From a virus, in the IMG/VR virus record IMGVR_UViG_3300034106_005852, positions 1 through 24,648 of that record: a stretch of DNA of 24,648 bases. One strand, given 5' to 3'. The position numbers and the translations under genes are program-made. The notes below the pieces were generated by a model. It was not told where the DNA came from. It did no database searches and worked only from the letters and a program-made list of their open reading frames with translations. Each line of letters opens with the position of its first letter. Position 1 is the first letter of the stretch. Of the stretch, positions 6,503-24,648 are shown one piece after another.

Positions 6503-8434
6503 TCACATACCGGCTGGCGCGGGTTGTCCGTACTGCTGCGCCATCACCATAGCGCCGCCCTGAGAACGAGCTTGTTGCCGAATGTCGTCAATAATACTTG
6601 TCACCAGCGCGTGCATCGTCGCGTCGCCGCGCTTGAGCTTAATAAGCTCCGAGTCTTTCTGTGTCTCAGGCATAGAGAGCAACTGGTTAGCAATAAGTTG
6701 CGCCTGCTGCTGCAGATCTTCGGGCGTACGTGGAATACTGCCGGAGTTCTGTCGCTGCATCAAGAAGTGATCAACAGCAGACGGCTGCCCAGGACCCATA
6801 GGCGCGCCGCCAGCGGCTGGTACAGGCGCGCCGCCTTGCTGCGGCGGCATGCCTGTCGCACCGGCACCAGCTTGACCTACGCCGCCCATCATTTCTGCAG
6901 ACTGCGACAAATCCTTCATCTGCTGCGACTGCTCCATCTCCTTTTGCATGCGCTCTTGCTCGTCGGCGTAAATGCGCTCTTCTTCGAGCATGCGCTTAGT
7001 CTCGTCCTCATAGTCGATGCCGACGCTCTTAAGACCCGTAGTCTTGCTGATCATCTGGCCCTGCATTAGTTGCAGCTTGGCCATCTGACGGTTGAGGTCG
7101 TCCGCGTGAGTAACGCGAACGAGCTTGGCACCTACCGGCTCCCACGACATCACATTGGCGACGTGGCCGGATAGGTCAGTCAAAAACCGATTCATGTTGT
7201 GCGGTAAATGGCTCCAGTTCGCTTCAAACAAGCGCAGCGCTGCCGGCGCAGCTTGGAACGACAGCGTGCCATTGAAAAGCTCAACCGGCATGCCAATGCA
7301 CTTGAGCAGCGTTTCAAGCCCCTGATCCAGCAAGTCTTTGGGCGCTAGCTGCGTGGCGTCGCCGCCAAGCGCCTGATAGTTCACAGGAAAAGGCAGCACA
7401 TTCCAACGAGCAGGATCTGTCCTACGGGCGCGAAGCATAGACTGCACCCGCGCCGTAAAATTAGACAAATTAATCGTGTGCACGGGGTCGGAAGACTGAG
7501 CATCGCCACCGCGCGGCGCCGGTGTAATTACGCGGAACGGAATCACGTAATCCAGCGCAATCGCCTCGTTATAGCGATGCAGAATCTGATAGTACCACGC
7601 CTGCCGGAAATTCGTCAGCACGCGAGAGATACCCCAACCGCGATTACGCATACCGGCGAGGGCGTCTTCTTTCAGATGGTAAATCACGCCCTTGTCAAAC
7701 ATCAAGTTCTGTTCGTTTTTGATCGCCTGAATCACTTCCCAACTGGCGCGCTCAAGATGATGCAAGTGCCCCTGCTTGATCAGCGCTCGGTAGTCCTGCG
7801 GAATCTTCCAGACGTAGGAGCAGTCGTCGGTGTACGGGTCCCAAAGAATGTCGATCTCGTGCGGACTCCAGCGTTTCACGTGCATGTTGTCGGTGTCGCC
7901 GGATCGCCGGTCGATATGGCGCCACTCTCCAGTTCGCTTGCACTTCGGGCAGGTAGCGTGAAACTGAAAGTCTTGCCACTTAAACGCGCACTGTTCAGAG
8001 TTGTAAACTTTGTCTAGCGGCATTTCGAGGCCGCAGGACTTGCACGACAGATACCGGCGAAACGGAACAAGCAGGCTGGTAAACGAATTACCATAGGACA
8101 TGTAGTCCAGCCCGATCGTGTGCAGGACGTTTTTGATGCTGAGAGTGTCTTCAAGAAAGACCTGAAACTTTTCTTTCTCTTCGCGCCCTGTGGTATTCTC
8201 ACCGATATCGTAAATTTCGACATCAGTAATAAAGTACGACACCACGCGGTCAACGGCTTGCCGGTACGGGCCGTTGGCGTTCATGACATACTCAGTCCAG
8301 CGTAAAGCTGTCTGAATACTTTCCGGCATAGACAGGCTGGCTATGTCGCAGAAAGGGTCCGGAAAGCGCTCGTCAGAATGAACGCCTTTGCCCAGCGAGT
8401 TGTAGCCGAGTTGTGAGGTTGGAGTAAGCGACAC
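6503..8434 (-). CDS. Portal protein with inserted zinc ribbon
   Basis: Portal proteins form the dodecameric ring at one capsid vertex through which DNA is packaged and to which the tail attaches. The evidence is the length (about 643 residues), the N-terminal region (RWTEYVMNANGPYRQAVDR, a typical portal opening) and the stem/crown-like segment GMPVELFNGTLSFQAAPAAL. The C-terminal part is rich in glutamine and methionine, then in proline and glycine. A C-x2-C pair at residues 132/135 and another at 163/166 form an unusual zinc ribbon inserted between early strands. Two adjacent GTG codons (8437, 8434) could start it; the second is better spaced (6 bases) from GAGG. A 52-residue gene ends 11 bases upstream, and the terminase must lie elsewhere. 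Confidence 0.88.
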   Translation of the reverse strand: MSLTPTSQLGYNSLGKGVHSDERFPDPFCDIASLSMPESIQTALRWTEYVMNANGPYRQAVDRVVSYFITDVEIYDIGENTTGREEKEKFQVFLEDTLSIKNVLHTIGLDYMSYGNSFTSLLVPFRRYLSCKSCGLEMPLDKVYNSEQCAFKWQDFQFHATCPKCKRTGEWRHIDRRSGDTDNMHVKRWSPHEIDILWDPYTDDCSYVWKIPQDYRALIKQGHLHHLERASWEVIQAIKNEQNLMFDKGVIYHLKEDALAGMRNRGWGISRVLTNFRQAWYYQILHRYNEAIALDYVIPFRVITPAPRGGDAQSSDPVHTINLSNFTARVQSMLRARRTDPARWNVLPFPVNYQALGGDATQLAPKDLLDQGLETLLKCIGMPVELFNGTLSFQAAPAALRLFEANWSHLPHNMNRFLTDLSGHVANVMSWEPVGAKLVRVTHADDLNRQMAKLQLMQGQMISKTTGLKSVGIDYEDETKRMLEEERIYADEQERMQKEMEQSQQMKDLSQSAEMMGGVGQAGAGATGMPPQQGGAPVPAAGGAPMGPGQPSAVDHFLMQRQNSGSIPRTPEDLQQQAQLIANQLLSMPETQKDSELIKLKRGDATMHALVTSIIDDIRQQARSQGGAMVMAQQYGQPAPAGM

Positions 8435-8445
8435 CACGCACCTCG

Positions 8446-21262: not shown

Positions 21263-21282
21263 GAAAACCTGCGCAGGTTTTC
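21263..21282. promoter_or_regulatory. 20-bp perfect palindrome before the recombinase gene
   Basis: GAAAACCTGC is followed at once by its own reverse complement, in the 48-base gap between the ParB-like gene and the recombinase. As DNA it is a symmetric site suited to a dimeric repressor. As RNA it gives a stem, followed on the minus strand by CTATTTAAT, a poor T tract, so it could also be a weak terminator. It ends 22 bases before the recombinase start. The ParB-like protein encoded just upstream is a natural candidate binder, by inference only. Confidence 0.7.
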
Positions 21283-22725: not shown

Positions 22726-24108
22726 CTACTTCTTGGCCAATTTCGCCTTAGCGGCCTTGGCGCGCGCAACAATATCAGCCGGATTGATCGCGTCGACTGT
22801 GGACGCGGCAGGTGCCGGCTCAGACTCCGCAACGGGCGCCGAAAAGATATCGGCTACGCCGGCTGCTTCTTCTTCCGTAATCTCGCCCTCTACCGGCGCG
22901 TCACCCCACGGCGCTCCGACCGGATCAGCAGGCTTAGGCTGCGGCTGCTCCGCCCTCTGACCAACCGGCTGCGCAACACGCTGGCGCGGAGCCGAGAAAG
23001 CCTGCACGGCCTCGTCGTCGTCCTCGTCAGCCTCAACAACCGGCGCGGCCGCAGCAGGCCGACGCGAAAGCGCCCGCAGGTACTGCGGGTACTCACGCCA
23101 CGCGAACTCAAGGGCTTCCCGCGGAAAAGCGGGAACCAGAAGCTCAGCCTGCTCCTCGTAAGACAGCACGTTTAACGTCTGGTCCCACGAAGAAGCCTCG
23201 GATTCAATACGCTCGGCGTGCTCTTCCAGAGAGATCACCTGCCCATTGAACTTGTCGTGCAGCACAGCGAAGTGAGTAAACGCGCTGCGCCGATCCGGCG
23301 GCGGGTAGCCGACGATGTACTGCGCGCCACCACGGGCGTACTTGGGGCAGAAGAAAGTCTCGGGGCCGTCGGCACCGATGCCCATGACCTTCTGCTCCTT
23401 GCTCTGGAACGACTCGGGAAGAATCGTCAGCAGCTTGGCTGGACCCATGGAGAGCATGTCGCCAGACAAGAACTCGTGCGTGTCGGGGTCCTGAACCTTG
23501 AGCGCCGAAAACAGAGACTGCAAGGCACTGAACTTGAGACCGATAACGCGAGCGTTCTTCTTCTGGTCGTCGAGAAAGCAACTCAGCGTGATCTGCCCGC
23601 GATCATCAACACCCACGATCGACGCCGAAATAAACAGCATCTTCTCAGGCTTGGTGAGCGAGCCGATCGAGGAGTTCATGACCTTCGGCTTCTGCAGCAG
23701 TTCGCTGAACAGACGGCCGACGCCCGGAGTCTCCTTGTTCTTCCACGCGACGTTGTAGAGCAGGTTATACGGGTTTTCCCGGATATCCAGTTCCGGATTA
23801 CCGTCGTGAACAATGAAACACACGCCGGGATTACCGACCCAGTGCGCCACCGTCATCAAACGGCACCAGTCACCCGTGGCAACGTCGCCGGCACCCTCGC
23901 GAAACCGGACAAAGCCAGCACCGCTCTCTTCGCGCATCGGCATGAGTCGCAGGCAGAGGCCCTGACCCATAAGCTCGTTGCCGGCGGCGATCAGAACATT
24001 GCGCCCGTAGGTGTAACGGGTGTTCTTCTTGGAACCGGAGTCAAGATTATTCTGCCGCCGGTACTCCGGATCGATGGCGGCGAGATTCTGCGAATTGTAA
24101 CGAGGCAT
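22726..24108 (-). CDS. Candidate phage single-stranded DNA-binding protein
   Basis: I do not recognise the family with certainty. The 460 residues begin MPRYNSQNLAAIDPEYRRQN. A large globular part (about 25-340) follows with many aromatic and basic residues: WCRLMTVAHWVGNPGVCFIV, GQITLSCFLDDQKKNARVIG, FFCPKYARGGAQYIVGYPPP. The last 110 residues are disordered: alanine/proline-rich with acidic runs (VVEADEDDDEAV at 357-368; EITEEEAAG), then a lysine-rich end (ARAKAAKAKLAKK). A globular core plus an acidic disordered tail, next to polymerase and recombinase, fits an ssDNA-binding protein, but the basic end is atypical. ATG 24108 has AAAGG 7 bases upstream and lies behind its own promoter and leader (24130-24223). 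Confidence 0.7.
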   Translation of the reverse strand: MPRYNSQNLAAIDPEYRRQNNLDSGSKKNTRYTYGRNVLIAAGNELMGQGLCLRLMPMREESGAGFVRFREGAGDVATGDWCRLMTVAHWVGNPGVCFIVHDGNPELDIRENPYNLLYNVAWKNKETPGVGRLFSELLQKPKVMNSSIGSLTKPEKMLFISASIVGVDDRGQITLSCFLDDQKKNARVIGLKFSALQSLFSALKVQDPDTHEFLSGDMLSMGPAKLLTILPESFQSKEQKVMGIGADGPETFFCPKYARGGAQYIVGYPPPDRRSAFTHFAVLHDKFNGQVISLEEHAERIESEASSWDQTLNVLSYEEQAELLVPAFPREALEFAWREYPQYLRALSRRPAAAAPVVEADEDDDEAVQAFSAPRQRVAQPVGQRAEQPQPKPADPVGAPWGDAPVEGEITEEEAAGVADIFSAPVAESEPAPAASTVDAINPADIVARAKAAKAKLAKK

Positions 24109-24129
24109 AATCGTACCTTTCTTTCTAGT

Positions 24130-24182
24130 GCGAGGATTGGTTACCTCGCGTTGTTGTTTAGTACTGGGAGTTGGTTCCCCAG
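24130..24182 (-). promoter_or_regulatory. Leader with two hairpins sharing an AACCAA loop
   Basis: On the minus strand, 24182-24164 reads CTGGGG, AACCAAC, TCCCAG (5 pairs plus one G-U), and 24149-24130 reads GCGAGG, TAACCAAT, CCTCGC (6 pairs). The stems differ in sequence but the loops both contain AACCAA, 34 bases apart. Hairpin two ends 10 bases before the ribosome site. Keeping the loop while changing the stem is what a protein- or RNA-binding site would show. Together they form most of the 5' leader of the 460-residue gene. Confidence 0.72.
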
Positions 24183-24195
24183 CGTTGATGCTCAG

Positions 24196-24223
24196 AGTCT
24201 AGCACACGCCGAAAAGGAATCAA
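24196..24223 (-). promoter_or_regulatory. Sigma70-like promoter with extended -10
   Basis: Minus strand: TTGATT (24223-24218) as -35, a 16-base spacer, and TAGACT (24201-24196) as -10, preceded by TGC as an extended -10. It starts 6 bases after the polymerase stop codon. Transcription should begin near 24189, giving a leader of about 80 bases that contains the two hairpins before the 460-residue gene. The match is by eye; each hexamer has one or two mismatches to consensus. Confidence 0.55.
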
Positions 24224-24228
24224 GCCCC

Positions 24229-24648
24229 TCAATTCTCGGTCAAAAAGTGCAATCCGAGAGCTTCTGCTTCCTGATCCGACAAGGTCTCGCCCCAGTGGAC
24301 GAACACCTCGCGCGATGAGCCAAAGTGATACGGACCGGCGTCAATCATCGAGCCGTCTAATCCTCGCGGATAGAACGGCACGTCGTCGATCATGCACTTT
24401 GGCACCACTTCCTTGTACACACGTTCAGCGTGCTCGATAGGCACGATGAGCACGATAGCGTCGTGAATCTGCAACCCAATCTTGTAGTCGATGTCGGGGT
24501 GCGTGTCACGGTATCGGTGAAAGTTGCGCAGCGCGATTGATACGGCGTCTGCGACTCCACCTTGAATTGGGAAGTTCTGAGCCTGCCGTTCCTGCTCGCC
24601 GCGGATTGCACGGTCGTTCGAGGGGGTGAAGCGGCGAAAACGCCCGTA
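24229..24648 (-). CDS. DNA polymerase, family A, C-terminal part (N-terminus outside window)
   Basis: This is the end of a Pol I-type replicative polymerase; the frame is open to the right edge and continues beyond it. Motifs in order: YGRFRRF just after the fingers O-helix, then ERQAQNFPIQGGVADAVSIA (the Q-R-x-x-N-x-P-x-Q-G-x-x-A-D signature), and LQIHDAIVLIVP, the palm motif C. Motif C normally reads H-D-E: the aspartate is present but the glutamate is alanine here. The remaining 60 residues (YKEVVPKCMIDDVPFYPRGL, ending LGLHFLTEN) complete the palm. Roughly 140 residues are visible, so any exonuclease domain cannot be judged. The downstream promoter starts 6 bases past the stop. Confidence 0.9.
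   Translation of the reverse strand, partial: YGRFRRFTPSNDRAIRGEQERQAQNFPIQGGVADAVSIALRNFHRYRDTHPDIDYKIGLQIHDAIVLIVPIEHAERVYKEVVPKCMIDDVPFYPRGLDGSMIDAGPYHFGSSREVFVHWGETLSDQEAEALGLHFLTEN

Follow-up and report, generated by a model that had tools for sequence, protein, structure and literature searches.

Several described systems come close to the leader reported here. In T4 gene 32 a pseudoknot lies ~67 bases upstream and is followed by an unstructured ribosome-binding site (RBS) (PMC3014915), and the RB69 operator has the same shape as that of T4 even though its sequence has diverged (PMC535899). The gp43 operators, by comparison, have the same loop bases in T4 and RB69 (PMC3014915). In bacteria the protection of mRNA by 5' stem-loops is well established (PMC7509114, PMC3997798), and the target RNAs of ANTAR have hexanucleotide loops with A at position 1 and G at position 4 (PMC3369931). 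In this study we describe a covariation-supported and previously undescribed leader RNA in uncultured large phages; a literature search on the element found nothing. The window analysed is the whole stretch of 24,648 nucleotides of IMG/VR virus record IMGVR_UViG_3300034106_005852.

The leader of a gp32-like gene

On the minus strand of the window a DNA polymerase A gene is followed by a promoter, a two-hairpin leader and an ORF of 460 residues. The upstream neighbour is the C-terminal part of the family A DNA polymerase (24229-24648, minus strand; Pfam DNA_pol_A 1.2e-11), of which a relative, L027, carries the full gene (1049 residues), and the end of the polymerase gene lies upstream of the 460-residue gene in all homologous leaders inspected. 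Its stop codon at ~24229 is followed by a sigma-70-type promoter, TTGATT-16-TAGACT with the extended -10 TGC (24196-24223, minus strand). The -35 hexamer TTGATT (24218-24223, minus strand) has the same position in relatives, where it reads TTGATT, TAGACA or TGGACT with a 16-base spacer wherever the promoter could be assigned, and the pattern TGnTAnnnT of the extended -10 element TGCTAGACT (24196-24204, minus strand) is kept in most of them. From the promoter motif, transcription is predicted to start near 24188, giving a leader of 80 bases up to the ATG at 24108, much as the original prediction had it with a promoter and a leader of roughly 80 bases in front of the ORF. The Shine-Dalgarno-like AAAGG (24116-24120, minus strand) is situated 7 bases 5' of the ATG in an open, A-rich stretch. 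A search for further extended -10 promoters followed by a Shine-Dalgarno-led start in the window, in the related phage G001 (198 kb) and in G003 returned none but that of this gene.

The protein itself (22726-24108, minus strand) had been proposed as a candidate single-strand-DNA-binding protein (SSB). At the sequence level it has no match beyond a weak one to PHROG 1607 (best E 0.087). An AlphaFold2 model built from 32 homologues reached a pLDDT of 72.8 (33.5 from 10 sequences), and its top Foldseek match was RB69 gp32 (prob 0.92, E 4.3e-3). Among solved structures only the RB69 and T4 gp32 cores gave Z > 5; the match to the gp32 core (Z 7.8 over 192 residues, rmsd 5.3, 6-7% identity) is modest, with Z < 8. 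The best viral matches in BFVD include annotated phage SSBs (~5e-7 to 3e-6). With a fold predicted to resemble T4 and RB69 gp32 (Foldseek/VIA, BFVD) and nothing unrelated competing, we take the protein as gp32-like and predict that it binds single-stranded DNA, in support of the proposed identity. Homologues were found on ~45 IMG/VR contigs, several of ~200 kb; in the cultured-phage collection none was detectable, and the genome contigs searched gave no match. The nearest cultured phages seen were those matched by a probable portal protein (6503-8437), namely Salmonella phage Arash and Vibrio phages D69, D148 and D181, with 25-29% identity over about three quarters of its length.

Two hairpins with different stems and an identical AACCAA loop had been predicted, and both are present on the minus strand. 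Hairpin 1 (24163-24183; GCTGGGG-AACCAAC-TCCCAGT) has 7 pairs, two of them G-U, and begins at the predicted +6, while hairpin 2 (24130-24149; GCGAGG-TAACCAAT-CCTCGC) has 6 pairs and ends 22 bases 5' of the ATG; AACCAA stands at 24171-24176 and 24137-24142, respectively. The 135-base leader region folds better than shuffled sequence (z -3.06), with 1 of 200 shuffles folding at least equally well. The repeated loop had been taken as an argument against chance. As a word, AACCAA occurs 14 times in the window against 13.4 expected, that is, at chance frequency. What does speak against chance is the alignment of one hairpin unit with the other, in which 22 of 29 columns agree (p ~0.0005 against random hairpins); each unit is an imperfect copy of its neighbour, and the shared loop is thus a piece of a longer repeat. 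The likeness between the hairpins is weaker or absent in other members of the clade.

Two small hairpins with an identical loop also recall the dual-hairpin antiterminators read by ANTAR. Position 4 of the present loop is C, however, and no overlapping coding-strand terminator was called, so that the leader does not belong to this class. A role in attenuation or termination, be it for the polymerase gene or for the leader itself, is also highly unlikely for these hairpins. A few relatives (L095, L102) do have U-runs behind the hairpin, and a scan of the window called one terminator-like site here on the strand opposite to the gene (24126-24153), but neither hairpin of the window is followed by a coding-strand U-run and no minus-strand terminator was called here. 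Other identities were considered as well. Rfam gave no match above its gathering threshold, the best one below it being RF02979 (freshwater-1) at the chance level of 14.3 bits against 72. The GGA loop of CsrA-type sites is absent from the window's loops, and the clear turn in GC skew that would be expected of an origin of replication is not seen at the locus in two relatives.

Stems, loops and placement among relatives

Both hairpins are present in nine leaders of a near clade (71-87% protein identity); in a far clade (~50-58%) a single hairpin is found. For the near clade, a plain MAFFT alignment of the nine leaders was compared with 500 shuffles and with slid controls. Six of 13 pairs have changed on both sides and 95.7% of cells are paired, against 38-56% in the slid controls; none of the 500 shuffles reached the covariation score. 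In hairpin 1 the pairs changed on both sides are 9-28 and 12-25 of alignment A2. Hairpin 2 contributes four of its six pairs, with 100% of cells paired in the nine leaders, and in the far clade three of five pairs have changed in this way. A covariance model (R1) matched only leaders of the SSB gene and nothing else below E 1. The stem covariation that the original prediction had asked for is thus borne out, and the comparison of sequences supports the view that both hairpins are real and under selection as structure. The same data bear on the idea that these inverted repeats, being dyads immediately 3' of the promoter, are DNA operators for a repressor of the SSB promoter. Such an operator should keep its half-sites; here the two sides change in step with pairing kept, and the G-U pairs break DNA symmetry, which makes this reading very improbable.

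The loops behave differently. AACCAA occupies both loops only in the window and in L021; hairpin 2 has AGCCAA in L053, and L026 shows AAACCAA in hairpin 2 only. In the remaining leaders the loops vary (CGA, CTCAACA, ACAAAA, TATAAAT). By sequence, loop conservation is found within clades and is absent across the family. An invariant AACCAA loop, a central element of the original prediction, therefore has to be given up, and free variation of the loop in homologous leaders was what that prediction had itself named as speaking against it. The far clade has a common loop of its own, AAYAGG; among L030, L031-L045 and L047 this loop persists although the stem is GTCGAGC in some and the unrelated AGGGC in others (L030 versus L031).

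Placement is a further shared feature. Of 38 leaders, which are related and hence not independent, 34 have a hairpin whose first base falls at about +1 to +13 of the predicted start site, mostly at +6 to +9, although the stems and loops of these start-proximal hairpins differ widely. For the gene-proximal hairpin, the median distance from its end to the AUG downstream is 22 bases (interquartile range -24.5 to -22). In the far clade one hairpin occupies both positions and in the near clade each of the two hairpins occupies one. Two longer leaders (L039, L049) have kept the 5' hairpin only, and L083 has two hairpins; four leaders (L050, L098, L100, L102) are without a good hairpin, which counts against the leader device proposed below.

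With two stem-loops immediately behind its promoter and a long operon to follow, the leader is also reminiscent of HK022 putL, and a put-like element, in which tandem hairpins bind the transcribing polymerase and cause downstream terminators to be ignored, has been considered. HK022 put RNAs, of about 70 nt, share sequence and their two stems abut, whereas the hairpins in our leader are ~13 bases apart, their sequences vary freely and most relatives carry one hairpin only. The likeness to put thus ends with the two stem-loops immediately 3' of the promoter, and we see only a very slim chance that the element acts in this way.

Comparison with the gene 32 operator

The original prediction read the hairpins as an autoregulatory operator, at which surplus gp32-like protein would nucleate on the hairpins, spread over the A-rich RBS and block translation. 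Much of the locus resembles the gene 32 operators of T4 and RB69: the predicted gp32-like fold of the protein, a structured 5' part of the leader followed by an open RBS, and a structure that outlasts its sequence. The mean unpaired probability of the RBS region is 0.90 in the window and 0.67-0.92 in the near clade, with lower values in some far-clade leaders. Variable loops would be compatible with such control, since the T4 and RB69 operators keep their structure despite sequence divergence (PMC535899). Against it stands that no conserved 5' pseudoknot was found. Pairing between the loops and the downstream leader is not conserved (L026 alone stands out, p 0.02), and nothing therefore points to a pseudoknot of the gp32 type in this test, which is blind to a tertiary fold lacking loop-downstream complementarity; loop-loop and loop-RBS pairing conserved among leaders was likewise not found. 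Where T4 and RB69 have a pseudoknot, these phages have one or two simple hairpins, which also occur before an unrelated gene of 438 residues. Moreover, the loop is not conserved, and ~22 open bases precede the AUG compared with ~45 in RB69. In the T4 gene 43 operator, too, a replication gene has a hairpin 5' of its RBS, but that operator keeps its loop, whereas the loops here vary.

What stands of the proposed operator are the selected hairpins and the gp32-like fold; the invariant loop does not, and the shared layout, together with the failure to find a conserved pseudoknot, weakens the case for feedback at an operator that serves the SSB alone. Autoregulation of the gp32 type is therefore a live but weaker rival of the general leader device described below, and we regard it as doubtful though possible. 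A more particular version, in which the SSB of these ~200 kb phages would read simple hairpins by structure rather than by loop sequence and control its own mRNA and perhaps that of the 438-residue gene, would amount to gp32 control free of a pseudoknot and seems highly improbable to us. Either way the leader lends itself to asking whether a pseudoknot is required for autoregulation of the gp32-like kind.

Hairpins before other genes

The 438-residue gene is unrelated to the SSB gene (L104:7679-8995 in G001, together with the 80 bases upstream) and its cluster may be a candidate head-assembly module. Its homologues are found on 44 contigs. In their leaders a TTGACA-type promoter-like sequence comes first, a hairpin next and an AAGGAG site last, which is also the order of elements in the SSB leader, and among 26 distinct leaders six of seven stem pairs have changed on both sides, with a score that none of 500 shuffles reached. 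Because this unrelated gene has the same layout of promoter, hairpin and RBS, we argue that the layout is a general device of the lineage and that the hairpin is not specific to the SSB; the SSB may additionally bind its own leader, with which the layout at the 438-residue gene is compatible. Across two whole relatives, the hairpins whose ends lie 14-32 bases 5' of a start number 15 against 8.1 and 24 against 7.6 in shuffles that kept base composition only, with mechanically called ORFs, an excess of ~2-3 times; the hairpin of the 438-residue gene is among them.

From the observed promoter motif, the hairpins with their covariation and placement, and the layout before a second gene, we infer a protection of the mRNA, a role at the RBS and a duplication. 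A host-type sigma-70 promoter within the replication operon would be dedicated to the SSB gene, and from its transcript, with a short leader, the gp32-like protein would be made in abundance. The hairpin near the 5' end of the transcript would protect it against 5'-end-dependent decay, and the hairpin just 5' of the RBS would shield this site while the A-rich stretch for ribosome loading stays open. A single hairpin might perform both tasks in most relatives; the window's clade has a longer leader with two hairpins, of which hairpin 2 resembles a copy of hairpin 1. Of the readings considered we favour, and give about an even chance to, this general leader device, in which a 5'-proximal hairpin protects the mRNA and the RBS is kept open, with a partial duplication in the window's clade.

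The E. coli stabilisers of the ompA/papA type provide a close parallel to the general leader device. They share with our leaders a stem kept by pairing and a loop of free sequence, as seen in the covarying stems and varied loops; their hairpin lies near the mRNA 5' end, and ours would do so too if transcription starts as predicted, some +6 to +9 ahead of it. They differ in that a phage gene is concerned here and that the stem, by prediction, comes after five to nine unpaired bases. Classic 5'-terminal stabilisers, as known from the ompA work, tolerate fewer unpaired 5' bases than this, and the distance, calculated from a predicted start, weighs against a stabiliser. The leaders suggest that these phages equip selected genes with a covarying hairpin, set between the promoter and the RBS, as a simple expression part.

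Some further features of the window and its relatives were noted. A perfect palindrome, GAAAACCTGCGCAGGTTTTC (21263-21282), ends 22 bases 5' of a UvsX-like gene, where relatives have other hairpins or none. The large ORF at 1-2628, probably a tail fibre, contains GPQGATGP repeats like those of collagen, along with 5.4 copies of a tandem repeat of 132 bases (44 residues), and the ORF at 16818-17690 matches the DUF1016 N-terminal domain slightly under the curated cut-off. In G001 a tmRNA gene (L107:7246-7602; RF00023, 125.6 bits) with the tag GASAPALAA adjoins a tRNA cluster.
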